Shown here: piece after piece, positions 9,894 through 28,853 of the stretch
Layout of the letters: each line of letters begins with the position of its first letter
Numbering within the stretch: position 1 is the first letter of the stretch
Assembly: GCA_016930855.1 (NCBI GenBank)
Contig: JAFGFX010000228.1
Location: 1-33,957, forward strand
Length of the DNA stretch: 33,957 bases
Origin: Sedimentisphaerales bacterium
GTDB taxonomy: Bacteria; Planctomycetota; Phycisphaerae; Sedimentisphaerales; SM23-30
Reading direction: 5' to 3'
The notes under the pieces: generated by a model
Told to the model about the DNA's origin: nothing
What the model saw: the letters and a program-made list of their open reading frames with translations, nothing else
Database searches by the model: none
Program-made: the position numbers and the translations under genes

Positions 9894-10217
9894 GGAGGTC
9901 TCCGGTATATCCGCCTGATTGTTTATACTGCAAACGGCCGCTATCGTCAAATCCGTTGGGCCCGACGGCCCGGGCAAAGACAATACCGGCTGCATGGGGC
10001 GTAAATCGACGCCGCCGGCCGGAAGCATATTGTTCTGCGAGAGAAGAACTTACGATAGACTACGGGTATTTGCCCCCTGGGATTTTGGGGCTGGAGATCG
10101 CGAGGGAACCGCGGAATTGGTAGGCCCAGCACTCGTGGTCTGGCCCATCTGTCCCGTCATCCAAGAGGGACGGGGTTGGTGGGTGCGGGCTTTCGCTGCG
10201 GGCAAGAGGGCGACGGG

Positions 10218-10658
10218 TTAATCCAGGATCAGACCGAGACTTTGTACCTGTTTTTTCAGGGATTCCCGCTGGATCGGCTTGATCATGTAGGCGTTGCAGC
10301 CGGAGCGGAAGGCCTGCTGCTTGTCGTTGTCCCCGTCCAGGCAGGTCGTCATGATGACCTTGACGCCTTCCGGCCGGTCAATGCCCTGGATCTCTTCGAG
10401 GCGGCGGATCTCCGACAGGGCCTCATGCCCGTTCATTTCCGGCATCATGATATCCATGCAGATCAGGTCGTACGGGCGCTTGTCCTCCAGGGAATTGGCG
10501 AAGGCATCCACCGCTTGGGAACCGTCGTTCGCCACGGCGCAGTCCCCGAATCGGGAGAGTATCGATTTCAAAACCCTGCTGCAAATCGGATCATCTTCCA
10601 CTACCAGGCTTTTCATGCTTTGTTCCCCGTTTCTGTTTTGGGGCTGCTCGACGATCAT
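10218..10658 (-). CDS. CheY-like single-domain response regulator
   Basis: 'MKSLVVEDDPICSRVLKSILSRFG...YDLICMDIMMPEMNGHEALSEIRRLEE...VKVIMTTCLDGDNDKQQAFRSGCNAYMIKPI'. Start at MIVEQPQ (AAGGGAG upstream) or MKSL (10616). Confidence 0.85.
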   Translation of the reverse strand: MIVEQPQNRNGEQSMKSLVVEDDPICSRVLKSILSRFGDCAVANDGSQAVDAFANSLEDKRPYDLICMDIMMPEMNGHEALSEIRRLEEIQGIDRPEGVKVIMTTCLDGDNDKQQAFRSGCNAYMIKPIQRESLKKQVQSLGLILD

Positions 10659-10999
10659 AAAGACTCCCTTCCTTTTATTTTCTATTTCGCCTGGCAGACC
10701 CCATGGTAAGCTCGGCAGGCTTGGATTTATCGGTCGTTGGCGCGGTTGCCCTCGCCGTTGCCGCCTGTCGCATCCCGACTCGACGTAAGCGAAATACTGC
10801 TTAGGGGATGTATCGGCCGATGGCGGAATCCACTTTATCCCGGAAATCATTATTATCCCCGCCGGCCGCCGGGGATCCGGCCGGAGTTGGCCGCTCCGGC
10901 TGCCCGGGAAACCCGGCCGGTGGCACCATAAGGCATTGTCAGAATCCCCCCTCGCCGGTATACTTGCCTCGGCGCTGGACAGATACACCCGCCTTGGAG

Positions 11000-11842
11000 A
11001 TGTCTATGGAACTGGCCATGATCAACGACACGATCGTCCCGATCGCCGAGGCCCGCATCCCGGCCCACGACCGCGGCCTGTTTTTCGGCGACGGCGTGTA
11101 TGAGGTGGTCGCCGCCGCCGGCGGCCGGCTCTTTGGCCTGGACCGACACCTGCGGCGGCTGGAACACAGTCTGCGGGAGATGGACATGCTGGGGCGGGTG
11201 GACCTGGAGTTGATCGAGCAGCGGGTCCGCCGGGCCTACGCCGAGGCGCAATTGCCCGACGCGAAGGTCTATTTCCACCTCACCCGCGGATGTGCCCTGC
11301 GGGCCCACGAATACGACAGCGATTGGCAGCCGAACTTCTTCTTGACCGTCGGGGCCCGCCGCCGCCTGCCGTTTGAAACCGTCACCGCCATCACCCATCC
11401 GGACTGGCGCTGGAAGCGTTGCGATATCAAGTCGCTCAATCTGCTGGCCAACGTACTGGCCCAGAACGCCGCCCGCCGGCAGGGGGCGTACGAGGCCCTG
11501 CTGGTCGACGAGAACCATTGCGTCCTGGAGGCCACCGCCAATTCCGTGCTTCTGGTCCGGGATTCCGTCCTGCGGACCGCCCCCCTGCATGCCAATATTC
11601 TGCCCGGCATCACCCGGGCCCTGTTGCTGGAATGGGCCCCGGCGTTCGGCCTGGCGGTTCGCGAGGAATCCTTCACCGTCGAAGAGGCCTGCCAGGCGGA
11701 CGAACTGATGCTCACCGGCACGACCTCCGAGGTTCTGGGCGTCCGCCAGCTCGACGGCCGCATGATCGCCGACGGCCGGCCGGGCCCCTGCACCCGGCGG
11801 TTCCGGCAGCGGCTGCAGGAGGCCATGCAACAGGATCGTTAG
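11000..11842 (+). CDS. Class IV PLP-dependent aminotransferase (D-amino acid / branched-chain aminotransferase-like)
   Basis: 'IPAHDRGLFFGDGVYEVVAAAGGRLFGLDRHLRRLEHSL', 'CDIKSLNLLANVLAQNAARRQGAYEALLVDENHCVLEATANSVLLV', 'ILPGITRALLLEWA', 'ADELMLTGTTSEVLGV'. Confidence 0.85.
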   Translation: MSMELAMINDTIVPIAEARIPAHDRGLFFGDGVYEVVAAAGGRLFGLDRHLRRLEHSLREMDMLGRVDLELIEQRVRRAYAEAQLPDAKVYFHLTRGCALRAHEYDSDWQPNFFLTVGARRRLPFETVTAITHPDWRWKRCDIKSLNLLANVLAQNAARRQGAYEALLVDENHCVLEATANSVLLVRDSVLRTAPLHANILPGITRALLLEWAPAFGLAVREESFTVEEACQADELMLTGTTSEVLGVRQLDGRMIADGRPGPCTRRFRQRLQEAMQQDR

Positions 11843-11947
11843 GGTGGAAGGCGGCGTAACCGTACGGGGGGGTATTCTCGTTCTCCCGGTGCAAGGCGCC
11901 CACTTTTTTAGGTGGCATGACCGTGCGGCCGGTGTAGCTGCTGCGTG

Positions 11948-14974: not shown

Positions 14975-14996
14975 CATTGTGATATTTATAACAATG
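14975..14996. promoter_or_regulatory. Rex-like operator
   Basis: CATTGTGATATTTATAACAATG: imperfect 8-bp inverted repeat (CATTGTGA / TAACAATG, one mismatch) with 6-bp spacer, matching the known TTGTGA-N6-TCACAA-like Rex site pattern; lies just 3' of the -10 box and upstream of rex. Confidence 0.7.
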
Positions 14997-15020: not shown

Positions 15021-15641
15021 TTGTTGGTACGGGAAAAGACAATCGGTCGCTTGAGCCTTTATCGCCGTTTGCTGACGGAACTACAGGGCGAGGGCCCAAA
15101 GTCGGTCTATTCCCACCAGTTGGCGGCACGGGCCGGCGTTTCGGCCGCCCAGATCCGCCGCGACTTCATGATCCTGGGCTACAGCGGCAGCCCCGCCCAG
15201 GGCTATGAGGTGGCCAAATTGCTCGACAGCATCACCCATTTTTTGGATGCCCCAGAGAGCCAGGGGGCCATCCTGGTGGGGGTGGGTAACCTCGGCCGGG
15301 CCCTGTTGGCCTATTTCGGCACCGGCCGGGCCCGGCTGCGGATCGAGGCCGCCTGCGACAACGATCCGAAGAAGATCCAGCGGGTCATCCATGGTTGTCA
15401 TTGTTATGCCATGGTTGAAATGCCCGAGGTCATCCGTCGGCAGTCGATACGAACGGCGATTATCACCGTGCCGGCCCCGGAGGCCCAGGCGGTGGCCAAC
15501 GATCTGATCGAGGCGGGGATCCGGGGGATATTGAATTTCGCCCCCGTCCGGTTGCATGTCCCGGAAGGGGTGTTTGTGGAGAATATGGATATGGCGGTCG
15601 CCCTGGAAAAGGTGGCCTTTTTTGCCCGCCAGCACGTGTAG
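15021..15641 (+). CDS. rex: Redox-sensing transcriptional repressor Rex
   Basis: 'TIGRLSLYRRLLTELQGEGPKSVYSHQLAARAGVSAAQIRRDFMILGYSGSPAQGYEVAKLL...GAILVGVGNLGRALLAYFG...IEAACDNDPKKI...TAIITVPAPEAQAVANDLIEAGIRGILNFAPVRLHVPEGVFVENMDMAVALEKVAF'. TTG start after AAAGGA. Confidence 0.95.
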   Translation: MLVREKTIGRLSLYRRLLTELQGEGPKSVYSHQLAARAGVSAAQIRRDFMILGYSGSPAQGYEVAKLLDSITHFLDAPESQGAILVGVGNLGRALLAYFGTGRARLRIEAACDNDPKKIQRVIHGCHCYAMVEMPEVIRRQSIRTAIITVPAPEAQAVANDLIEAGIRGILNFAPVRLHVPEGVFVENMDMAVALEKVAFFARQHV

Positions 15642-15658: not shown

Positions 15659-16171
15659 ATGCCTGTATCATCAACATCGATGGCGGATCGGATAGAAACC
15701 ATCTTGACGAGATACCCCAACGGCAAGCGCGATGCCCTGATCCCCCTGCTCCAGGACATCCAAGAGGATCTGGGTTTTCTTTCCCGCCAGGCGGTCCTGC
15801 AGGTCGGCAGGCATCTGAATCTGCCCGCCAGCAAGATCTACGGCGTGGCGACCTTTTACAACCAGTTTCGCTTCGAGCCCCAGGGCCGGTTCCATATCCA
15901 GGTCTGCCGGGGAACCGCCTGCCATGTCAAGGGCTCCGCGATCGTGCTGGAAACCCTCCAGCAGCATCTCGGCATCGGACCCAATCAGACCAGCCGCGAC
16001 GGCCAGTTCAGCCTGGAGGTGGTGGCGTGCATCGGGGCCTGCGGACTGGCGCCGGTCATCAGCATCAACGGTGAATTCTTCGGCGGGGTCACCCCGGAGA
16101 AGATCCCGGACATCATCGAGGCGGTTCGCCGTCAGGACCAGAAAGACCCAGATCATGATCAACACTTTTGA
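15659..16171 (+). CDS. NuoE/HndA-like [2Fe-2S] thioredoxin-fold subunit of NAD(P)-linked [FeFe] hydrogenase
   Basis: 'NGKRDALIPLLQDIQEDLGFLSRQAVLQVGRHLNLPASKIYGVATFYNQFRFEPQGRFHIQVCRGTACHVKGS...VACIGACGLAPVISING'. Confidence 0.93.
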   Translation: MPVSSTSMADRIETILTRYPNGKRDALIPLLQDIQEDLGFLSRQAVLQVGRHLNLPASKIYGVATFYNQFRFEPQGRFHIQVCRGTACHVKGSAIVLETLQQHLGIGPNQTSRDGQFSLEVVACIGACGLAPVISINGEFFGGVTPEKIPDIIEAVRRQDQKDPDHDQHF

Positions 16172-18149
16172 AACCAATTGTTGTGCCCAATGCCAGCACA
16201 CCCCCCAGCGGCCCTGTCCGGACCGGATCGATTGCCTCCAGGACCGGCCGCGCTGTCATGAGAAAGAGGCCTGCCACCGGCAGCGATTGGAACTCATGGC
16301 GCAGCTGCGGCGGGAAACCCTCACGCGGCCGGCCATTTTCGTGGGCACCGGCACCTGCGGCCTGGGGGCCGGCGCCGGCAAGACCATGGCGGCGGTGCGG
16401 CGCTTTCTGGCGGATCGCGACCTCCAGGCGGACCTGATCGAGGTCGGCTGCATCGGCCTTTGTGCCGCCGAACCGATTCTCGACGTCCAATTACCCGCGC
16501 GGACGCGGGTCTCCTTCCAGCAGGTCACCGAAGACAAGGTGTCCTCCCTGCTGGCGGCGGTGCTGGCCGGGCAGATTCCGGCCGATTCGGTCATCGCCCA
16601 GCATCGTGGTGACGGCCTGGAGGCCTGGCCGGACGTGTGGTTTCTGGACGAACACCCCTTTTTCGCCCCGCAGCAGCGGATCGTCCTGGCCAATTGCGGC
16701 CTGATCGATCCGGCCAGTTTCGACGAATATATCGCCCGCGGCGGTTACCAGGCCCTCGCCCATGTGCTGCGGCAAAACACCAGTGCCGAGCTATGCGACC
16801 GGATCGAGCAAAGCGGCCTGCGCGGCCGGGGCGGCGGCGGATTTCCCACGGGGGAAAAATGGAAATTCGCCCTGGCCGCCCAGGCCGATCAGAAATACCT
16901 GATCTGCAACGCCGATGAAGGCGATCCGGGCGCGTTCATGGACCGGGCGGTGATCGAGGGCGATCCCCATCGCCTGCTGGAGGGCATGGCGATCGGGGCG
17001 TACGCCATCGGGGCGACCAAGGCCTATGTCTATATCCGGGCGGAGTACCCGCTGGCCATCCGCCGCCTGAAAAAGGCCATCGCCCAGGCCCGCGGCGCCG
17101 GCCTGCTGGGCGAGAACATCCTCGACAGCGGCTTTCACCTGGACATCGTCATCAAGCAGGGGGCCGGCGCCTTCGTCTGCGGCGAGGAAACCGCCCTCAT
17201 CCAGAGCATCGAGGGCAAGCGCGGCATGCCCCGTCCCCGGCCGCCCTTCCCGGCCGTGCAGGGGCTGTTCGGCAAGCCCACCATCATCAACAACGTCGAG
17301 ACGCTGGCCAATGTCCCCGCGATCGTCAGCCGCGGGGCCGAATGGTTCAGCGCCATCGGCACCGCCAACAGCAAAGGCACCAAGGTCTTCGCCCTGTCGG
17401 GCAAGGTGAAACTGACCGGCCTGATCGAGGTCGCCATGGGGACCTCCCTCCGGCAGATCATCTTCGATATCGGCGGGGGCATCCCCGCCGGCAAGTCCTT
17501 CAAGGCCGTCCAGATCGGCGGTCCCTCCGGCGGCTGCATCCCGGCGGAGCACCTGGACATCGAGATCGACTACGAATCCCTCAAGACCGTGGGGGCCATG
17601 ATGGGCTCGGGCGGCCTGGTGGTGATGGACGAGGATACCTGCATGGTCGATCTGGCCAAGTTCTTCATGGATTTCATCCAGCGCGAGAGTTGCGGCAAGT
17701 GCATCCCCTGCCGGGAGGGAACCCGGCGGATGCTGGAGATCCTCCGGCGGATCACCCGCGCCCGCCGGGACGAGACCGGCACCGATGCCCTGGAACGCTT
17801 CAAGGGGATCATGTACCTCCAGCGGCTCGCCGAGGTCATCAAGGATACCAGCCTCTGCGGATTGGGCCAGACCGCGCCCAATCCGGTCCTGAGCACCCTA
17901 CGCTGGTTTCACGACGAGTACGAGGCCCATATCTACGAGCGCCGCTGTCCGGCCGGCGCCTGTCGCGAGCTGCTGGAGTACCGGATCGATCCCCAGGCGT
18001 GCAAGGGCTGCACGCTCTGCGCCAAGAAATGCCCCGCCGATGCCGTCCGGGGCGTCGCCAAGGGCCCCCATTACATCATCCCGGAAAAGTGCATCGGCTG
18101 CGGAACCTGTGTCCAGGTCTGTCGCTTCGGCGCGGTCATCGCCGAATAA
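16155..18149 (+). CDS. NuoF/HndC-like flavin/Fe-S NADH-binding subunit of [FeFe] hydrogenase, with C-terminal 2x[4Fe-4S] ferredoxin
   Basis: ATG at 16155; 'LRGRGGGGFPTGEKWKFA', 'KYLICNADEGDPGAFMDRAVIEGDPH', 'GAGAFVCGEETALIQSIEGKRGMPRPRPPFPA', 'ESCGKCIPCREGTRRMLEIL', 'CKGCTLCAKKCPADAV...CIGCGTCVQVCRFGAV'. Confidence 0.95.
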   Translation: MINTFETNCCAQCQHTPQRPCPDRIDCLQDRPRCHEKEACHRQRLELMAQLRRETLTRPAIFVGTGTCGLGAGAGKTMAAVRRFLADRDLQADLIEVGCIGLCAAEPILDVQLPARTRVSFQQVTEDKVSSLLAAVLAGQIPADSVIAQHRGDGLEAWPDVWFLDEHPFFAPQQRIVLANCGLIDPASFDEYIARGGYQALAHVLRQNTSAELCDRIEQSGLRGRGGGGFPTGEKWKFALAAQADQKYLICNADEGDPGAFMDRAVIEGDPHRLLEGMAIGAYAIGATKAYVYIRAEYPLAIRRLKKAIAQARGAGLLGENILDSGFHLDIVIKQGAGAFVCGEETALIQSIEGKRGMPRPRPPFPAVQGLFGKPTIINNVETLANVPAIVSRGAEWFSAIGTANSKGTKVFALSGKVKLTGLIEVAMGTSLRQIIFDIGGGIPAGKSFKAVQIGGPSGGCIPAEHLDIEIDYESLKTVGAMMGSGGLVVMDEDTCMVDLAKFFMDFIQRESCGKCIPCREGTRRMLEILRRITRARRDETGTDALERFKGIMYLQRLAEVIKDTSLCGLGQTAPNPVLSTLRWFHDEYEAHIYERRCPAGACRELLEYRIDPQACKGCTLCAKKCPADAVRGVAKGPHYIIPEKCIGCGTCVQVCRFGAVIAE

Positions 18150-18169: not shown

Positions 18170-19891
18170 GTGATCACCATCGAAGTCAACAATCAAACCA
18201 TCGAAGCCAAATCCGGCCAGACCATCCTGGCGGCCCTGAAGGCGGCCGGCGTGACGGTCCCGACGCTCTGCCACCTGGACGATCTGCCGCCCTCCGGGGC
18301 CTGTCGGATGTGCGTGGTCGAGGTCGAGGGCCGCGGCGGCCTGATCCCGAGCTGCGCCTATCCGGTCGCCGAGGGGATGAAGATCAAGACCCATTCGCCC
18401 CGCGTGGTCCGCGCCCGCAAGACGATCATCGAGCTGCTGCTGGCCGACCACCCGGACGACTGCCTGTACTGCGTGCGCAGCGGCAACTGCGAGCTGCAGA
18501 AACTGGCCGAGCAGTACGGCGTCCGCGAACGGCGCTTTACCGGCGCCCGCAGCAGCCATCATCTGGACACCTCCAGCCCGTCGATCGTCCGCGACCCGGC
18601 CAAGTGCATCCTGTGCGGCCGCTGCGTGCGGGTCTGCGAGGAAATCCAGGGCGTCTCCTGCATCGACTTCCTCGGCCGCGGCAGCCGGACCATCGTGGGC
18701 ACCGCCTTCAACCAGGGCCTCAACGTCTCCAGCTGCATCCACTGCGGCCAGTGCATCCTGGCCTGCCCGACCGGCGCCCTGCGGGAACAGGATTGTCTCA
18801 AGGAGGTCTTCAACGCCCTAAAGGATCCCGACACCTTTGTCGTCGTCCAGCACGCGCCCAGCGTCTCGGTGTCCCTGGCGGAGGAATTCGGCATGAAACC
18901 GGGCGTCGACGTCTGCGGGATCATGACCGCCGCCCTGCGGCAGCTTGGATTCGACCGCGTCTTCGATACCGGATTCTCCGCCGACCTGACCATCATGGAG
19001 GAGGCCAGCGAACTCGCCCGGCGCATCCGGCAGGGTGGACCTCTGCCGATGCTGACCAGCTGCTCGCCCGGCTGGATCAAGTTCGTCGAGCAGTTTTATC
19101 CCGATTTTATGCCGCATCTGTCCACCTGCAAGAGCCCGCAGCAGATGATGGGCGCCATCCTCAAGTCCTATTTCGCCGAAACGGAGGGCATCGATCCGGC
19201 CCGCATCTTCAGCGTCTCGATCATGCCCTGCACCGCCAAGAAATTCGAGGCCCAGCGTCCGGAGATGATCCACGACGGCATTGCGGACATCGACGCCGTG
19301 ATCACCACCCGGGAGTTCGCCAAGCTGATCCGCGCCCACGGGCTCGAGCTGTCCCGCCTGGCCCCCGACGTGGCCGATTCCCCCTTCGGCATGCGCAGCA
19401 GCGCCGGCAAGCTCTTCGGCGCCACCGGGGGGGTCATGGAGGCCGCCCTGCGCACCGCCCATTATTTGCTGACCGGCTCGGAGATGCCCATCGAGCCGAT
19501 CAAGGAACTCCGCGGCCTCAAGGGCATCAAACGGGCCCACCTGCAGATCGGCGAGCTGCAAGTCGGCGTCGCCGTCGCCAGCAACCTGAGCAACGCCCGC
19601 GCCCTGCTGGACGAGATTGCCGCCGGCCGCAGCGACCTGCATTTCATCGAGGTGATGACCTGCCCCGGCGGCTGCATCAACGGCGGCGGCCAGCCCCTGC
19701 ATGCCGATCCCCAGGCCATCAGCGAGCGGATGAAGCGACTGTACAAGATCGACCGCGACGACCCGCTGCACTGCTCGCATAACAACCCAGAAATCATCCG
19801 GCTGTACCGGGATTATCTCGGCGAGCCGCTGGGCGAACGCAGCCATCAGTTGCTGCACACCCACTACAGCGAACGGACGGTATACGCCTAG
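18170..19891 (+). CDS. HndD-like catalytic subunit of [FeFe] hydrogenase (group A3-like by context)
   Basis: GTG start at 18170; [2Fe-2S] N-terminus 'PTLCHLDDLPPSGACRMCVVEV', His-Cys cluster region, two [4Fe-4S] motifs, H-cluster motifs 'TSCSPGWIKF', 'MPCTAKKFEAQRPE', 'EVMTCPGGCINGGGQP', small-subunit-like C-terminus. Confidence 0.96.
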   Translation: MITIEVNNQTIEAKSGQTILAALKAAGVTVPTLCHLDDLPPSGACRMCVVEVEGRGGLIPSCAYPVAEGMKIKTHSPRVVRARKTIIELLLADHPDDCLYCVRSGNCELQKLAEQYGVRERRFTGARSSHHLDTSSPSIVRDPAKCILCGRCVRVCEEIQGVSCIDFLGRGSRTIVGTAFNQGLNVSSCIHCGQCILACPTGALREQDCLKEVFNALKDPDTFVVVQHAPSVSVSLAEEFGMKPGVDVCGIMTAALRQLGFDRVFDTGFSADLTIMEEASELARRIRQGGPLPMLTSCSPGWIKFVEQFYPDFMPHLSTCKSPQQMMGAILKSYFAETEGIDPARIFSVSIMPCTAKKFEAQRPEMIHDGIADIDAVITTREFAKLIRAHGLELSRLAPDVADSPFGMRSSAGKLFGATGGVMEAALRTAHYLLTGSEMPIEPIKELRGLKGIKRAHLQIGELQVGVAVASNLSNARALLDEIAAGRSDLHFIEVMTCPGGCINGGGQPLHADPQAISERMKRLYKIDRDDPLHCSHNNPEIIRLYRDYLGEPLGERSHQLLHTHYSERTVYA

Positions 19892-19983: not shown

Positions 19984-22068
19984 ATGGTTCAACCGGCGAA
20001 CATCGCATTTATCCGAACGGCCAAGGAAAACTGCCGCGTGTGCTACACCTGCGTGCGGGAGTGTCCCGCCAAGGCCATTCGCATCGCCGAGGGCCAGGCC
20101 CAGATCATCGCCGAACGGTGCATCAGCTGCGGCAACTGCGTTCGGGTGTGCAGCCAGGGCGCCAAGCAGGTCATCCACGGCATCGATCCCGTCCGGGAGC
20201 TGCTGGCCGGTCCCGAGCCCGTGGCCGCCTGCCTGGCGCCCAGTTTCCCGGCGGAATTTTCCGAGTGGGAATATGAAACCTTCCTCGGCATGGTCCGGGC
20301 CCTGGGATTCGATTATCTGATCGAGGTCGCCTTCGGCGCCGACCTGGTCGCCCGCCGCTATGCCGAGCTGCTGGCCTCGCCGGACCGGTCGCGCAGCTAT
20401 ATTTCCACCGCCTGCCCGGCCATCGTCAGTTATGTCGCCAAGTATCATCCCCAACTGGTCGACCGCCTGGCGCCCATCGTCTCGCCCATGGTCGCGGCCG
20501 CCCGCGTGGTGCGGCACCGTTACGGCCCGCAGGTAAAACAGGTGTTCATCGGGCCCTGCATCGCCAAGAAAAGCGAGGCCCTGCACGCCCCGGTGGACCT
20601 GGAACTCGACGCGGTCCTGACCTTCGCCGAACTGGCCCGGATGTTCGACGAGAGCGGACTCGATCCGGCCGCCGTCGCTCCGGCTGATTTCGATCCGCCC
20701 CGCGCCGGCCTGGGCGCGTTGTTTCCCATCAGCCGGGGCCTGTTGCAGGCCGCCGACATTGCCGAGGACCTGATGGTCGGCGATGTGGTCGCCACCGACG
20801 GCCGGACGAACTTCGTGGAGGCCATCAAGGAATTTGAAAGCGGCGCCCTGGACGCCCGGTTGCTGGAGGTGCTGGCCTGCAACGGCTGCATCATGGGGGC
20901 GGGGATGACCACGGATCTGCCGCTGTTTCGCCGCCGGTCGCAGGTGAGCCGCTACGTGCGGCGGCGGATGCGGCAATTCGACCGGGCCGCCTGGCAGCGG
21001 GACATGGACTGTTTCGGCGAACTGGATCTCGGCGCCCGATTTCACCCGGACGACCAGCGCGTCCCCGTGCCCTTCGCCGAGGAAATCACCTACATCATGG
21101 CCAAGATGGGCAAGCGCAATCCGGAGGACGAACTCAATTGCGGCGCCTGTGGCTACGATACCTGTCGGGAGCATGCCGTGGCCATCTTCAAGGGCCTGGC
21201 GGAAAGTGAAATGTGCCTGCCGCACACCATCGATCAGCTGCGCCGCACGGTCGAGAAGCTCGCGGCCTCCAACGAGCAGTTGGCCGACACCCGCGAGGCC
21301 CTCATGCAGTCGGAAAAACTGGCCAGCATGGGCCAGTTGGCCGCCGGCATCGCCCACGAAGTGAACAATCCGCTGGGCGTGGTGCTCATGTACGCCCACC
21401 TGCTGCTGGACGAGATCGAACAGCACTCGCCGATTCGCGAGGATCTGCACATGATCGCCGAGCAGGCCGACCGCTGCAAGAAGATCGTCGCCGGTCTGCT
21501 TCATTTCGCCCGGCAGAACAAGGTCCAGCTGCAGCCGACCGATGTGACGGCGCTGGTCGATCGGGTCTTGCAGGTGGCCGCTGCGCCCCTGAACGTCACG
21601 GTGCAGGCCCAAAACGAGCTGACCGACCGAATCGCCGAGATCGATCCCGACCAGATCGTGCAGGTGCTCAACAATCTGATTCACAACGCCTTTTCGGCCA
21701 TGCCCGACGGCGGGACGCTGCACCTGCGCACCTACGGCGATACGGCCCAGGTCCGGATCGACGTGACCGACACCGGCGTGGGAATCGCCAAGGAAAATCT
21801 GGGCAAGCTCTTTGAGCCGTTTTTCACCACCAAGGACATCGGCCAAGGCACCGGCCTGGGCCTGTCGGTCACCTACGGCATCATCAAGATGCACCGGGGC
21901 GACATCCAGGTCCATACCAACGCCGATCCGGCGGCCGGTCCGACCGGCTCGACCTTTACCGTCATCCTGCCCCGCCGCCAGAGCCCCCGGCCGGTCGAAG
22001 CGAACCGACGGGACATCGGATACGACCAAATTGAAACTAAGGACACCCGAACGGACTACCAATCGTAA
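19984..22068 (+). CDS. Ferredoxin / [FeFe]-hydrogenase H-cluster-like domain / FeS domain / histidine kinase fusion (putative redox or H2 sensor kinase)
   Basis: '[18 protein letters not shown]...[16 protein letters not shown]'; '[10 protein letters not shown]', '[11 protein letters not shown]', '[15 protein letters not shown]' as H-cluster-like motifs; '[20 protein letters not shown]'; HisKA '[21 protein letters not shown]'; HATPase '[13 protein letters not shown]', '[22 protein letters not shown]', '[14 protein letters not shown]'. Confidence 0.93.
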
Positions 22069-22491
22069 ATGAAAGTCGAGCCCGCCATGAATCCAACCCG
22101 GCAGAATCCCGTTACCATCCTTTTGGTGGACGACGATCCCGATTTCCTCTGTCAGATGGAGCTTCAGCTCCGCAACGCCGGCTACGCCGTGACCACGGCC
22201 GCCGATTGCCGGGAGGCCGAGGCCCAGTTGGCACAGGCCCCGCCGGATCTGGCCGTCCTCGATCTGATGATGGATCATCCGGACGACGGATTCGCCCTCT
22301 GCTACCACATCAAGAAGAAGAATCCGGCCACGCCGGTCATCCTGGTCACCGCCGTCACCAGCGAAACGGGCCTGGAATTCGACGCGGCCACGGAGGAGGA
22401 AAAATCCTGGATCCGCGCCGACGCCATGCTCAACAAACCCGTGCGCTTCGAGCAGCTCACCCGCGAGATCGAACGCCTCCTGCGAAAGTGA
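22069..22491 (+). CDS. Stand-alone receiver-domain response regulator
   Basis: 'VTILLVDDDPDFLCQMELQLRNAGY...PDLAVLDLMMDHPDDGFALC...PVILVTAVTSETG...ADAMLNKPV'; starts immediately after the upstream stop (alternative start at 22087). Confidence 0.9.
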   Translation: MKVEPAMNPTRQNPVTILLVDDDPDFLCQMELQLRNAGYAVTTAADCREAEAQLAQAPPDLAVLDLMMDHPDDGFALCYHIKKKNPATPVILVTAVTSETGLEFDAATEEEKSWIRADAMLNKPVRFEQLTREIERLLRK

Positions 22492-22496
22492 ACGTT

Positions 22497-23636
22497 ATGG
22501 AAACCCTGCAAATACTCGTTGTCGATGACGAGCCGGGCATGCTCACCGGCGTGCAGCGGGCCCTGCGCAGCCTGCGGCTGGTGCTGGCCGAGGTCCAGAC
22601 GGAGGTCGATTTCACCGTCGAGACCGCCGCCAGCGGCGAGCTGGCCCTGGAGCGGATCGAGGCCCATCGCCCCGATATCCTCCTGTTGGATCACAAGCTG
22701 CCCGGCATCAGCGGCCTGGACGTTTTGGAACGCATCGCCGCCCGCAAGAGCGACATCCTGACGATCATGATCACCGCCTATGCCTCGCTGGAGACGGCCG
22801 TGACCGCGATCAAACAGGGGGCGTATGACTTTCTGGCCAAGCCGTTCACCCCCGGCGAGCTCAAGGCCACCGTCCACAAGGCGGCCTCCAACCTGGTTCA
22901 CACCCGCCAGGCCCGCAAGCTCGCCCAGGAAAAACGCCGCATCCGCTTTGACGTGATCTCCGTTCTGGTCCACGAGCTCAAGGCCCCGCTGGCCGCCGTC
23001 GAGGGCTACCTCAGCATCCTGCGCGACGGCATCGCCGGCGAGGATCCCGCCCTGCAGCATAAGATGATCGCCCGCTGCGGCGAGCGGATGGACGGCATGC
23101 GCAAGCTCATCGTCGATATGCTGGACCTGACCCGCATCGAGTCCGGCCAGAAGGCCCGCACCTTGAGCCGCGTCGACGTGGCCGAGATCGCCCGCAAGGT
23201 CATGGACAACTGCCAGGCCGCCGCCGCCGGTCGGGGGATCAACCTAATGCTGACCGGGCCGGAAATCCTGGCCATGACCGCCGACGCCGGCGAGATCGAG
23301 ATCGTTCTAAACAACCTGGTGACCAACGCCATCAAGTACAACCGCGACGGCGGCCGGGTGGAGATCCTCCTGAATCAGACCGACTGTCGGGTGACGCTGG
23401 CCGTGCGGGATACCGGCATCGGCCTGACCGAGGAGGAGGCCGCTCGGCTGTTTCAGGATTTCGTCCGTATCAAGAAGACCGAAACCCGAAACATCCCCGG
23501 CAGCGGGCTGGGACTGTCCATCGTCAAGAAGATCGCCTACCTGTACGAGGGAAACGTCGACGTCGAAAGCCAGCCCGGCCAGGGAAGCACCTTTACCGTG
23601 ACCTTGCACAATGAACCGGAAGTCCACCATCACTAA
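22497..23636 (+). CDS. Receiver-histidine kinase hybrid (REC-HisKA-HATPase)
   Basis: 'LQILVVDDEPGMLTGVQRALR...DILLLDHKLPGISGLDVL...TIMITAYASLETAVTAIKQGAYDFLAKPF' followed by 'DVISVLVHELKAPLAAVEGYL' and 'VLNNLVTNAIKYN...DTGIGLTEEEAARLF...GSGLGLSIVKKIAYLYEG'. Confidence 0.92.
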   Translation: METLQILVVDDEPGMLTGVQRALRSLRLVLAEVQTEVDFTVETAASGELALERIEAHRPDILLLDHKLPGISGLDVLERIAARKSDILTIMITAYASLETAVTAIKQGAYDFLAKPFTPGELKATVHKAASNLVHTRQARKLAQEKRRIRFDVISVLVHELKAPLAAVEGYLSILRDGIAGEDPALQHKMIARCGERMDGMRKLIVDMLDLTRIESGQKARTLSRVDVAEIARKVMDNCQAAAAGRGINLMLTGPEILAMTADAGEIEIVLNNLVTNAIKYNRDGGRVEILLNQTDCRVTLAVRDTGIGLTEEEAARLFQDFVRIKKTETRNIPGSGLGLSIVKKIAYLYEGNVDVESQPGQGSTFTVTLHNEPEVHHH

Positions 23637-24702
23637 AGAGCAGATCCGCCGTTGGCTGCGGGAAACGGACTGGCGACGGCTGGATACCCTGTTTGGCCGC
23701 GCCGACCGGGTCCGGCGGGACCACGTCGGCGACGAGGTCCATCTGCGCGGCCTGGTGGAGATATCCAGTCACTGCCAGCGGGATTGTCTCTACTGTGGAC
23801 TGCGCCGTCAGAATCGCATCCTGTCCCGCTATCGCCTCAGTGCCGAGCAGATCCTCGCCTGTGCCCGTCGGGCGGTCCACTACGGCTACGGCACCGTGGT
23901 GCTCCAATCCGGCGAGGACTCCGGCATCCGCCGGGAGTGGCTAACGGAGGTGATTCGCCAATTGAAACGCCAGACGCACCTGGCGGTGACTCTCAGTCTG
24001 GGCGAGCGCGACCGGGCGGACCTGGCGGCCTGGCGCCATGCCGGCGCCGATCGCTACCTCCTGCGGTTCGAGACGGCCAACGCGCATCTGTATAATCGGA
24101 TCCACCCCCCCCGGCGACCGGGCCTTCCCGACCGCTTCGATCTGCTGCGAACCTTGCGGCAGCTCGGCTACGAGGTCGGCAGCGGCGTCATGGTCGGCAT
24201 CCCCGGCCAGACCATCGACGATCTGGCCGACGATATCGAGTGGTTCGGCCGGCTGGATCTGGACATGATCGGGCTGGGTCCCTTTCTGGCCCATCCCCAT
24301 ACGCCGCTGGGACAAGAATATGCCGAAGCATCCGACCGCCCGGCCGACCCCCGACAGGTCGCCAACAGCGAGTTGATGACCTACAAGGCGATCGCCCTGG
24401 TGCGGCTGGTCTGTCCGGACGCCAACATCCCCAGCACCACGGCTCTCGCCAGCCTCAATCCGCAGAACGGTCGGGAAGAGGGCCTGCGGTGCGGGGCCAA
24501 CGTCATTATGCCCAACCTGACGCCCCTTGCCTACCGGCGGCAGTACGAAATCTATCCGGCCAAGGCCTGTCTCCAGGAAGAGCCCGGCCGATTCGATCAA
24601 CAGCTCAAACAGCGGATAGCCGCCCTGGGCCGTCGCGTCGGCGTCGGTCCCGGAGCCGCCCCGCATTATCTCGAACGCCGCAAAGCAGAGGTGCCATCGT
24701 GA
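23611..24702 (+). CDS. hydE: [FeFe] hydrogenase H-cluster radical SAM maturase HydE
   Basis: 'VHLRGLVEISSHCQRDCLYCGLRRQN', 'YRLSAEQILACARRAVHYGYGTVVLQSGED', 'RYLLRFETANAHLYNRIHP', 'YEVGSGVMVGIPGQTIDDLADDI'. Confidence 0.95.
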   Translation: MNRKSTITKEQIRRWLRETDWRRLDTLFGRADRVRRDHVGDEVHLRGLVEISSHCQRDCLYCGLRRQNRILSRYRLSAEQILACARRAVHYGYGTVVLQSGEDSGIRREWLTEVIRQLKRQTHLAVTLSLGERDRADLAAWRHAGADRYLLRFETANAHLYNRIHPPRRPGLPDRFDLLRTLRQLGYEVGSGVMVGIPGQTIDDLADDIEWFGRLDLDMIGLGPFLAHPHTPLGQEYAEASDRPADPRQVANSELMTYKAIALVRLVCPDANIPSTTALASLNPQNGREEGLRCGANVIMPNLTPLAYRRQYEIYPAKACLQEEPGRFDQQLKQRIAALGRRVGVGPGAAPHYLERRKAEVPS

Positions 24703-26123
24703 ACACTACCCTGCCGATGAATCGCAGCGCGGACGCGATCGATTTTATCGATGACGTGGCCTTGACCGGCCTGCTGGACGTCGGATCGCCCGAACCACAG
24801 CGCGTCCGGGACATCATCGCCAAGAGCCTGGCCAAGGAGGCGCTAACCGTCGAGGAAACTGCTACCCTGCTGCGGGCGGACGATCCGGCCCTAGCCGAGG
24901 AGATCTTCGATGCCGCCCGCGACCTGAAGCGCCGGGTCTACGGCAACCGGATTGTGCTGTTCGCCCCCCTCTACATCGGCAATCTCTGCATCAACGACTG
25001 TGCCTACTGCGGCTTTCGCCGCTCCAATCCGGACGCCGTCCGCCGGACGCTCAATCCCGGCGAGGTGCGCCGCCAGGTCGAGGCCCTCGAACGGGCCGGT
25101 CACAAGCGGCTGATCCTGGTCTTCGGCGAGCACGCCCGCTACCATGCCGAGTACATCGCCCAGACCGTCCGGACCGTGTATGACGTCAAGGTCGACCACG
25201 GCGAGATCCGCCGCGTCAACATCAACGCCGCCCCCCTGGAGATCGAGGACTACCGCATCGTCAAGGATGCCGGCATCGGCACCTATCAGATCTTCCAGGA
25301 GACCTACCATCACGAGACCTACCGCCGCTATCACCCGGCCGACACCCGCAAGGGCGATTACCTCTATCGCCTGGACGGCCTGAGTCGGGCCCTGCAGGCC
25401 GGCTGCGACGACGTGGGCATCGGCGCCCTGTTCGGACTGGCCGACTGGCGGTTCGAGGTGCTCGGACTGGTCAGCCACGCCCTCTTTCTCCAGCGACGCT
25501 ACGGCGTCGGGCCCCACACCATCAGCTTCCCGCGTCTGCGGCCCGCCGCCGGGATCGAGTTCGATCCGCGGTTTCTGGTCAACGACGAGGATTTCAAGCG
25601 CCTGATCGCCATACTCCGCCTGGCGGTGCCCTATACCGGTCTGATCCTGACCGCCCGGGAGAATCCCGAGCTGCGCCGGGCGGTGATGGACTTCGGCGTC
25701 TCCCAGATCGATGCCGGCAGTCGCATCGAGATCGGCGGCTACACCGAGTTCGGTGACGCCCAGGTCATGCAGCGCGAACAGTTCACCCTCGGCGATGTCC
25801 GACCGCTGGACGAGGTGATGGGCCAACTGCTCGAGGACGGCTACCTGCCCAGCTTTTGCACCGCCTGCTATCGGCTGGGGCGCACCGGCGAGCATTTCAT
25901 GGAGTTCGCCATCCCCGGCTTCATCAAGCGCTACTGCACGCCCAACGCCCTGACCACGCTGATGGAGTATCTGGTGGACTACGCCAGCCCCGCCACCCGG
26001 CAAAAGGGCCTGACCCTGGTCCAGTACGAACTGGACCGGATGCCCGCCGGCAAGCACAAAGAGGATCTGCAGCGCCGCCTGCGTCAGATCCGGTACTCCG
26101 GCGACCGGGATCTGTATGTATAA
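24699..26123 (+). CDS. hydG: [FeFe] hydrogenase H-cluster radical SAM maturase HydG
   Basis: GTG start overlapping the hydE stop; 'LFAPLYIGNLCINDCAYCGFRRSN', 'GEIRRVNINAAPLEIEDYRIVKDAGIGTYQIFQETYHHETY', C-terminal auxiliary-cluster motif 'SFCTACYRLGRTGEHFMEFAIPGFIKRYCTPNALTT'. Confidence 0.97.
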   Translation: MNTTLPMNRSADAIDFIDDVALTGLLDVGSPEPQRVRDIIAKSLAKEALTVEETATLLRADDPALAEEIFDAARDLKRRVYGNRIVLFAPLYIGNLCINDCAYCGFRRSNPDAVRRTLNPGEVRRQVEALERAGHKRLILVFGEHARYHAEYIAQTVRTVYDVKVDHGEIRRVNINAAPLEIEDYRIVKDAGIGTYQIFQETYHHETYRRYHPADTRKGDYLYRLDGLSRALQAGCDDVGIGALFGLADWRFEVLGLVSHALFLQRRYGVGPHTISFPRLRPAAGIEFDPRFLVNDEDFKRLIAILRLAVPYTGLILTARENPELRRAVMDFGVSQIDAGSRIEIGGYTEFGDAQVMQREQFTLGDVRPLDEVMGQLLEDGYLPSFCTACYRLGRTGEHFMEFAIPGFIKRYCTPNALTTLMEYLVDYASPATRQKGLTLVQYELDRMPAGKHKEDLQRRLRQIRYSGDRDLYV

Positions 26124-26181
26124 CATCCCCGCCGAGCGACCCCGTCCAAGAATGGGACCATTTGGCAAGCGAAAAAATATC

Positions 26182-27624
26182 ATGACCTATCGCATCGAAA
26201 AAGACAGTCTCGGCGAACGCCAGGTTCCCGCCGCTACCCTCTATGGCATCCACACCCTGCGGGCCCGGGAGAACTTCCCCCTGGCCGGCCGGCCGGTGAA
26301 TCCGGCGCTGATCCATGCCTACGGCGTCGTGAAACGGGCCTGCTGCCGGGCCAACCAGCAATGGCGCCCCTGGCCGGACGGTATCTTCGCCGCCATGGAG
26401 CAGGCCTGTTCCGAGATGCAGCGGGGCCTGCTCGACGAGCACATCCTCGTCGACGCCCTCCAGGGCGGCGCCGGCACCTCCACCAACATGAATATTAATG
26501 AGGTGTTGGCCAACCGGGCCCTGCAGATCCTGGACCGGCAGCCCGGCGACTATACGTGCATCCATCCGCTGGACGACCTCAACCGCCATCAATCCACCAA
26601 CGACACCTACCCAACCGCCCTCAAGGTGGCCGCGTTGGAGGAACTGGCCCGGCTGGAGCCGCAGGTCATTGCCCTGCTGGAGGCCTTCCAGGTGCAGGAA
26701 AAGAAACTCGCCCACGTCGTCAAGATCGGCCGCACCCAGTTCCAGGACGCCGTGCTGACCACCCTTGGCCGCGAGATGGGCGCCTACGCCGAGGCCCTCG
26801 CCCGCGACCGCTGGCGCCTCTACAAGTGTCGCGAGCGGCTCCGCGTGGTCGCCCTCGGCGGCACCGCCATCGGCACCGGCCTGGGGGCGCCCCGGTCCTA
26901 CATCTTCCGCGTGGTGGATCTCCTGAGGGAGCTGACGAATCTGCCGATCGCCCGGGCGGAAAATCTCGTGGAAGCGACCCAGAATACCGACGTGTTCGTG
27001 GAGGTCAGCGGCCTGCTGAAGACCCTGGCCAGCAACCTCTTAAAGATCAGCACGGATCTGCGCTTCCTGTCGTCCGGTCCCCGTGCCGGGATCGGCGAAC
27101 TGCGCCTGCCGCCGCGGCAGGCGGGCTCATCGATCATGCCCGGCAAGGTCAATCCGGTGATCCCTGAGGCCATCTCCCAGGCGGCCCTGCAGGTCTTCGC
27201 CAATGATCAGGCTATTACCCAGGCGTGCAGTATGGGCCATCTGGAGTTGAACGCCTTCCTGCCGCTGATCGCCGACCGGCTGCTGGAAGGGATTCAGCTT
27301 ATGACTCGCTCCTGCGCCATATTGCGCCAGGGGTGCGTGGCGGGCCTGACGGCCGACGAGGCCCGCTGCCGGATGCAGGTGGAAAACGCCACCGCCGCGG
27401 TTACGGCGCTGGTCGAGGTGATCGGTTACGAAGCGGCCGCCGCGGTCGCCGCCGCCGCCGAGCGGGAGAAAAAGACCGTTCGCCAGATCGTCCTGGAACG
27501 GGGACTGCTGAACGCCCACCAATTCGATCGCTGCATCTCGCCCGAACAGGTGATGCGATTGGGCTCCGTCGGCGGGGGCAGCGATACGGCGCCGCCGCCC
27601 GACAGCGGGGGCGAACCATCATGA
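26182..27624 (+). CDS. aspA: Aspartate ammonia-lyase (aspartase/fumarase superfamily)
   Basis: 'MTYRIEKDSLGERQVPAATLYGIHTLRARENFPL', 'GGAGTSTNMNINEVLANRAL', 'HQSTNDTYPTALK', signature 'GSSIMPGKVNPVIPEAISQAALQV'. Confidence 0.92.
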   Translation: MTYRIEKDSLGERQVPAATLYGIHTLRARENFPLAGRPVNPALIHAYGVVKRACCRANQQWRPWPDGIFAAMEQACSEMQRGLLDEHILVDALQGGAGTSTNMNINEVLANRALQILDRQPGDYTCIHPLDDLNRHQSTNDTYPTALKVAALEELARLEPQVIALLEAFQVQEKKLAHVVKIGRTQFQDAVLTTLGREMGAYAEALARDRWRLYKCRERLRVVALGGTAIGTGLGAPRSYIFRVVDLLRELTNLPIARAENLVEATQNTDVFVEVSGLLKTLASNLLKISTDLRFLSSGPRAGIGELRLPPRQAGSSIMPGKVNPVIPEAISQAALQVFANDQAITQACSMGHLELNAFLPLIADRLLEGIQLMTRSCAILRQGCVAGLTADEARCRMQVENATAAVTALVEVIGYEAAAAVAAAAEREKKTVRQIVLERGLLNAHQFDRCISPEQVMRLGSVGGGSDTAPPPDSGGEPS

Positions 27625-28853
27625 AGAACACCCCCAAGGGTTTGCGCCTGCACATCGGCCTGTTCGGCCGGCGGAACGTGGGCAAGAGTTCGCTGCTGAA
27701 CGCCCTGACCCGCCAGCAGGTCTCGATCATCTCGGAGGTGGCGGGCACCACGACCGATCCGGTGGAAAAGCCGATGGAGCTGCTGCCGCTGGGCCCGGTG
27801 TTGTTTATCGATACCGCCGGGATTGATGATCTCGGATCGCTGGGCGCCCAGCGGGTGCAGCGTACCCGGCAGGTGTTCGACCGGACCGATCTGGCGATTC
27901 TGATCACGCAGGCCGGCGAATGGACCCAATATGAGCCGGCGATGCTGGCCGAATTTGGTCAGCGGGGGATTCCCACAATAGTGGTGTACAACAAGTCCGA
28001 TCTGGCCGGCCCGTCGGCGGAGCTGTCGGGGCGACTCGAGCAACAGGGGATTGCAACCGTGCGGACCTCCGCGCTGCTCGGTGAGGGGATCGCCGACCTG
28101 CTCGCCATGATCATTCGGCAGGCGCCGGAGGATTTCGTCCATCCGCCGACGATTCTGGGCGACCTGATCGAGCCGGGCGACCTGGTCATGCTGGTGGTAC
28201 CGATCGACCTGGAGGCGCCGAAGGGCCGGCTGATCCTGCCGCAGGTCCAGACGCTGCGGGAGGTGCTGGACGGCGACGCCTGCGGTCTGATCGTCAAGGA
28301 GCGGGAGTTATCTGAGGCCCTGGACCGGCTGCGGCGGCCGCCGCGGCTGGTGGTTACTGATTCCCAGGCCTTCTTGAAGGTCGCCGGCGACACGCCGCCC
28401 GGCGTGAAGATGACGTCGTTTTCGATCCTGTTCGCCCGCCAGAAGGGCGATCTGGCGGAGTTTGTCCGGGGGGCCCTGGCGATCGAGCGGTTGCGGCCGG
28501 GCGATCGGATCTTGATCAGCGAATCGTGCAGCCATCATCCGATCGGCGACGATATCGGCCGGATCAAGATCCCCCGCTGGCTGACCCAGTACGTGGGCGG
28601 CCGGTTGCATTTCGAGGTGGTCCAGGGCCATGATTTTGCGGACGACCTGGCGGATTTCCGGCTGGTGGTGCAATGCGGCGGCTGCATGCACAACCGCCGG
28701 GAGATGCTCACGCGGATCGGCCGCTGCCGGGCGGCGGGGGTGCCCATCACGAATTACGGCGTGGCGATCGCCTACACGCTGGGGATCCTGGATCGGGCCT
28801 TGGAGCCGTTCGCCGCGGCGCACGAGCTGTATCGTCGCCTGCGGGCCAAGTAA
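27621..28853 (+). CDS. hydF: [FeFe] hydrogenase H-cluster maturation GTPase HydF
   Basis: ATGA overlap with aspA; 'HIGLFGRRNVGKSSLLNALTRQQVSIISEVAGTTTDPVEKPMELLPLGPVLFIDTAGIDD', 'NKSD', C-terminal Fe-S ligand region 'ISESCSHHPIGDDIGRIKIPRWL...VVQCGGCMHNRREML'. Confidence 0.97.
   Translation: MKNTPKGLRLHIGLFGRRNVGKSSLLNALTRQQVSIISEVAGTTTDPVEKPMELLPLGPVLFIDTAGIDDLGSLGAQRVQRTRQVFDRTDLAILITQAGEWTQYEPAMLAEFGQRGIPTIVVYNKSDLAGPSAELSGRLEQQGIATVRTSALLGEGIADLLAMIIRQAPEDFVHPPTILGDLIEPGDLVMLVVPIDLEAPKGRLILPQVQTLREVLDGDACGLIVKERELSEALDRLRRPPRLVVTDSQAFLKVAGDTPPGVKMTSFSILFARQKGDLAEFVRGALAIERLRPGDRILISESCSHHPIGDDIGRIKIPRWLTQYVGGRLHFEVVQGHDFADDLADFRLVVQCGGCMHNRREMLTRIGRCRAAGVPITNYGVAIAYTLGILDRALEPFAAAHELYRRLRAK

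Follow-up and report, generated by a model that had tools for sequence, protein, structure and literature searches.

A histidine kinase-fused [FeFe]-hydrogenase-like protein with a contracted H-cluster loop, encoded behind a bifurcating hydrogenase in a Sedimentisphaerales bacterium

Introduction

A gene in the draft genome of a Sedimentisphaerales bacterium joins an [FeFe]-hydrogenase-like domain to a histidine kinase on a single chain and follows the gene of a catalytic hydrogenase, raising the questions of whether its product holds an H-cluster, what it senses and where the signal goes. Putative regulatory H-domain proteins have been classified before: HydDB, whose classes derive from similarity networks, distinguishes the [FeFe] groups C1 (histidine kinase-linked) and C3 (phosphatase-linked) (PMC5037454). 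More recently, the main-text passages of PMC11406978 (2024) describe BfuT, which is assigned to group C3, carries a histidine kinase domain and is found beside sub-type V group A3 clusters in Hydrogenedentota; they report the same arrangement for Caldithrix abyssi, and two bfuT genes, of unclear meaning, in Perlabentimonas and its relatives. A preliminary description of the locus, made from the sequence, had noted divergent H-cluster motifs and the lack of a PAS domain, and had proposed a sensor controlling the adjacent hydrogenase. We followed up these observations with profile searches, a structure model and a comparison of relatives and their loci.

Results

The locus lies in a stretch of 33,957 nucleotides, the whole of which we call the window. 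Eleven genes on the plus strand follow each other in the order rex, hndA, hndC, hndD, sensor, receiver, receiver-kinase, hydE, hydG, aspA and hydF. The first, rex (15,021–15,641), encodes an NAD(H)-responsive repressor and matches the NCBIfam Rex subfamily NF003995 at 208 bits (cut-off 126). About 27 bp before it is a Rex-operator-like palindrome, TTGTGATATTTATAACAA (14,977–14,994, plus strand), with one mismatch to TTGTGA-N6-TCACAA. The pattern was tuned to the site itself, so that its chance figure of 0.03 is not independent and the position before rex is the better argument; this position suggests that the operon may be autoregulated. The NuoE-like hndA (15,659–16,171; PF01257, 3.2e-51) and the NuoF-like hndC (16,155–18,149; PF01512 and PF10589) precede hndD (18,170–19,891), the catalytic subunit of a group A [FeFe]-hydrogenase (NF040763, 828 bits; PF02906, 2.9e-91), whose closest PDB entries are the HydA1 proteins of T. 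kivui and A. woodii. The L1 motif of HndD reads TSCSPGW, with Ser preceding Pro, a form shared with A. woodii HydA1 (PDB 7q4v) and frequent among these A3 proteins.

Downstream of the sensor gene, a single-domain receiver, RR1 (22,069–22,491; PF00072), begins directly after the sensor stop codon and is followed by RR-HK (22,497–23,636), a hybrid with receiver, HisKA and HATPase profiles; the Pfam search found no DNA-binding domain in either. The remaining genes are hydE (23,611–24,702; TIGR03956, 323 bits), hydG (24,699–26,123; TIGR03955, 483 bits), the aspartate ammonia-lyase gene aspA (26,116–27,624; NF008909, 618.6 bits) and the maturation GTPase gene hydF (27,621–28,853; TIGR03918, 553 bits). 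Ammonia-lyases have been linked to H-cluster maturation (PMC11736057), a link with which the position of aspA is consistent, and with hydE, hydG, hydF and aspA the requirements of a second H-cluster protein would thus be covered by genes of the window. In the draft genome (406 contigs, 84% complete), the only proteins matching PF02906 are HndD and the sensor, both inside the window.

The sensor gene (19,984–22,068, plus strand) starts with ATG and encodes 694 amino acids. Pfam profiles confirmed that one reading frame carries all the proposed modules: a 2x[4Fe-4S] ferredoxin domain (20,020–20,163, residues 13–60; Fer4_10 at residues 13–56), an H-domain (20,218–20,901, residues 79–306) matching Fe_hyd_lg_C with E=4.5e-47 and 161 bits (cut-off 22.1), an FeS domain (PF04060; 21,133–21,222, residues 384–413), HisKA (21,328–21,516, residues 449–511) with the phospho-acceptor H458 at 21,355–21,357, and HATPase_c (21,643–21,978, residues 554–665). 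The absence of a PAS domain was likewise borne out, as Pfam gave zero PAS matches and HisKA comes directly after the FeS domain. The H-box, N-box and G-boxes of the kinase are intact, with H458, N568, D596 and G622/G624/G626 invariant in an alignment of 32 sequences. The AF2 model (mean pLDDT 86.2, pTM 0.66) places most blocks of the H-domain at 90 or above and predicts a continuous helix over residues 412–477 (21,217–21,414) that leads from the FeS domain to H458, with pLDDT dropping to 60–66 across residues 431–460. By Foldseek, the front of the model resembles CbA5H, DdHydAB, TmHydABC and CpI, and the rear resembles ZraS.

The motifs quoted in the preliminary description, with their four cysteines, are all present. 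In L1 (STACPAIV, 20,404–20,427), A143 and C144 stand at the positions of C299 and C300 of CpI; in L2 (IGPCIAKK, 20,548–20,571), C192 and K195 stand at those of CpI C355 and K358; and in the contracted L3 (20,875–20,907, containing CNGC), window C299 and C302 take the places of CpI C499 and C503. The L3 of the sensor thus has the spacing CxxC, as had been noted, whereas that of the neighboring HndD has the canonical CxxxC (TCPGGCINGGG).

Proteins of this architecture are widespread. Kinase-fused orthologues are encoded in related genomes and in other parts of the phylum, and we found at least about 100 kinase-fused relatives across more than ten phyla, mostly encoded behind hndD and beside a matching receiver pair. 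The best 80 matches of a scan of named genomes were almost all kinase-fused. The matches listed included Bacteroidales/Bacteroidetes, Hydrogenedentota, Ignavibacteria, Myxococcota, Lentisphaerae, Calditrichaeota, KSB1, Elusimicrobia, Acidobacteriota, Dehalococcoidia, Spirochaetaceae and others, although individual taxon labels may be wrong, as the relatives come mostly from metagenome-assembled genomes. Viral contigs contained just two relatives, both distant. Dozens of independent genomes encode the same full-length fusion, which is therefore not an assembly artifact. The preliminary description had suspected relatives in Firmicutes; relatives do exist, but the Firmicutes proteins that we recovered are of the PAS type.

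The gene neighborhood is conserved together with the protein. Among loci with enough flanking sequence, hndD lies immediately upstream of the sensor in 55 of 65, which supports the proposed tie between a kinase-linked sensory [FeFe]-hydrogenase-like protein and the adjacent hydrogenase. RR1 adjoins the sensor in 53 of 60 loci, RR-HK follows in 59 and both receivers are close by in 52. The phospho-accepting Asp of RR1 is conserved in 53/53 relatives; in those of RR-HK, the receiver Asp is found in 59/59 and the HisKA His in 56/59. One locus (L077, 10,004–13,276) has a kinase-fused sensor and a receiver-kinase and lacks a hydrogenase gene within 10 kb, and its genome encodes HydG and other PF02906 proteins elsewhere.

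The CxxC spacing is a property of the clade and not a local oddity. It was found in 91 of 92 kinase-fused proteins (counting L139, which was labeled "other" by the rule and assigned CxxC by eye) and in none of 24 PAS-type sensors, all of which have CxxxC; the tie to the kinase fusion was first seen in 36 sequences and held in loci collected later. Among the published proteins, Perlabentimonas BfuT (L118) carries the same motif. In quick trees, computed without bootstrap, the H-domains separated from group A with 100% SH-aLRT and were sister to those of the PAS-type sensors, and when the L3 columns were omitted, a tree of the sensing part placed the kinase-fused proteins and their decayed paralogues (below) opposite the PAS-type sensors (SH-aLRT 94). 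On the tree, a single origin of CxxC and a single reversal suffice to explain the two spacings. The reversal, in L102 (1,236–3,281), has CKGGC and an L3 of canonical length, making it the sole such protein among the 92 and a natural revertant. Another variant, CCxGC, occurs in 43 of the 92 and places a Cys also before the equivalent of window C299; a CxxxC pair would thus be possible in those 43 and not in the window protein, which is without the extra Cys.

The preliminary description had considered that the spacing by itself could mean an altered or [4Fe-4S]-only cofactor. This found no support, given that the spacing is shared by the clade and that no kinase-fused protein among 92 has lost any of the four cluster cysteines or the counterparts of CpI K358 and E361; the stronger form, that CxxC alone means no H-cluster, is weakened by the same invariant pocket residues. 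All 92 proteins keep the equivalents of CpI C300, C355, C499, C503, K358, E361, S323, P324 and P354; the four cluster cysteines of the window protein (144, 192, 299 and 302), the eight Cys of the ferredoxin domain and the four of the FeS domain are equally invariant. The position of CpI M353 is Gly in 92/92 (G190 in the window protein), and the proton-relay Cys of CpI C299 has been lost across the clade, as in most group C proteins. Loss of C299 and change of M353 have been reported for group C sensors (PMC10055695; PMC8163306), and the pattern of the clade matches these reports.

A different pattern is seen in Bacteroidota paralogues that are nested in the clade and lack the kinase. These retain the FeS-domain cysteines, the equivalent of K358 in 0/11 and that of C499 in 6/11. 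Such a decayed second BfuT of about 620 amino acids was found at L075, L085, L087, L090, L091, L093, L097, L098, L100, L112 and L118. By its residues, the second Bacteroidota BfuT appears to be a pseudo-hydrogenase sensor, and the losses look like what would be expected upon release from the constraint of the [2Fe] subcluster.

These paralogues bear on the best-surviving alternative, that the H-domain of the whole clade carries a [4Fe-4S] cluster only and senses the redox state of the ferredoxin or NADH pool, with H2 not being its ligand. The paralogues favor it by showing that the scaffold can outlive the [2Fe] pocket, and the clade-wide contraction of L3 points the same way. So do relatives in two Dehalococcoidia genomes, one of which is a single 2.3 Mb contig: neither genome gave a HydG match, a HydE or HydF match above the cut-off or another PF02906 protein, and their sensors (L140 and L142, the latter at 10,001–11,938) are encoded near a sigma-54 protein, NuoE and NuoF (L142, 8,886–18,011). 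Against this alternative, the K358 equivalent is present in 92/92 kinase-fused proteins and in 0/11 decayed ones, and the E361 equivalent in 92/92 kinase-fused proteins; all three maturases are encoded in the window, and most relatives adjoin a canonical hydrogenase. We consider a cluster without the [2Fe] part possible but unlikely for the clade.

The Dehalococcoidia sensors retain all cluster and pocket residues. The invariance of these residues was therefore rejected as proof of an H-cluster: they can be retained even where the presence of an H-cluster is improbable, which argues against extending the H-cluster and H2 reading to the relatives. Missing HydG was in turn rejected as a general test for the H-cluster, as some genomes with canonical A3 hydrogenases are also without it. 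Three genomes (G676, G671 and G599, with loci L162, L163 and L165), in each of which the contig with the sensor spans roughly the full genome length, contain group A hydrogenases and gave no HydG match; HydE is present in G671 and absent in the other two, and G676 has a HydF-like gene beside the operon. Within the deep FCEGC branch, too, several genomes lack HydG.

The Dehalococcoidia cassette differs in its outputs as well, the sensor being followed by an NtrC-type sigma-54 regulator and by a receiver fused to a NuoG/HndD-like Fe-S module. The latter fusion, beside NuoE/NuoF, hints that a receiver may contact the complex directly.

Discussion

The window protein is probably a sensory [FeFe]-hydrogenase of group C type, located in the cytoplasm and fused to its output kinase, that senses H2 through an H-cluster. 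That it binds an H-cluster and senses H2 is, on sequence grounds, the most likely reading; from the domains, motifs, conservation and gene order we infer the occupancy of the cluster, its ligand, the direction of phosphate flow and the output. H2 would bind a low-activity H-cluster held by C144, C192, C299 and C302, with K195 and E198 lining the [2Fe] pocket and with assembly by HydE, HydG and HydF (with AspA) of the same operon. A redox or conformational change would then pass through the C-terminal FeS domain to the long helix with H458 and alter autophosphorylation. In TamHydS, the C-terminal cluster is not reduced by H2 (PMC13104023), which argues against electron transfer to this cluster as the signal. 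The phosphate would go to RR1 (22,069–22,491), to the receiver of RR-HK (22,497–23,636) or to both. As neither receiver protein has a DNA-binding domain, the relay would either control the Hnd complex directly or act through a different protein located elsewhere. Sensor control would be superimposed on the control of the operon by Rex, responding to NADH/NAD+. We know of no CxxC-spaced relative that has been purified, or shown to bind the [2Fe] subcluster or to respond to H2.

H-clusters bind CO. The protein might thus hold an H-cluster whose physiological signal is CO, O2 or the integrity of the cluster instead of H2, and the low turnover expected without the CpI C299 proton relay would suit such a role. 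We find this improbable, as the conserved partner is an H2-metabolizing complex, no CO-metabolism gene is among the annotated genes of the window, and TamHydS and TmHydS show increased CO tolerance (PMC8163306). A catalytic subunit with a fortuitous kinase tail and no regulatory role, to which the PF02906 match far above the cut-off could point, is very unlikely, given that the kinase motifs are intact and conserved, that both receivers are near in 52 of 60 loci and that the group A proton-relay Cys is missing, as in most group C proteins.

The favored group C-kind sensor can be compared with several described proteins. Closest among these are the kinase-domain BfuT proteins of Hydrogenedentota, Caldithrix and Bacteroidota, in which, according to the main-text passages of PMC11406978, a kinase-fused hydrogenase-like protein similarly stands beside an A3 bifurcating hydrogenase; in the window, hndA, hndC and hndD are directly upstream. 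The HydDB class label of the window sensor is uncertain, the kinase-domain type being filed under C3 in those passages. TmHydS of Thermotoga maritima (group C, M2f) shares the ferredoxin, H-domain and C-terminal FeS domain, with Ala and Gly in place of CpI C299 and M353; unlike the window sensor, it has a PAS domain and no fused kinase. TamHydS of Thermoanaerobacter mathranii (group D, M2e) shares the same three modules, the absence of PAS, Leu at the M497 position and a gene near a bifurcating hydrogenase, but it has Ser instead of Gly at the M353 position and its kinase-like gene is merely a neighbor (PMC8163306). The PAS-type homologue of Ruminococcus albus (L148, RUMAL_RS17375) has ferredoxin, H-domain and FeS domain with 36% identity over the sensing part, and differs in its PAS-like tail, a separate adjacent SpoIIE phosphatase and the canonical CNGSC.

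Like group C proteins, the sensor is separate from group A, has lost CpI C299 and M353 and holds the four cysteines. It departs from the PAS-type members in having CxxC instead of CxxxC and no PAS domain after the FeS domain, an M2f feature. The kinase fusion was known; what is added here is the shortened H-cluster loop and the sensor's own relay of two receivers. The main-text passages of PMC11406978 mention neither a contraction of L3 nor a receiver/receiver-kinase pair (the term "response regulator" being absent) nor the residue loss of the second BfuT. More speculatively, and rather against the odds, the contracted loop may make a structurally distinct sensory H-cluster, or a [4Fe-4S]-only switch in lineages without HydEFG, whose receiver/receiver-kinase relay controls the bifurcating complex and not transcription.

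Published accounts still treat a sensory function of group C and D [FeFe]-hydrogenases as putative, partly because their output is unknown or separately encoded. With the output kinase on the same chain, H2 sensing could be read as autophosphorylation. Together, the CxxC clade, its decayed paralogues and the maturase-less Dehalococcoidia form a natural series on what sensing needs from the H-cluster scaffold.
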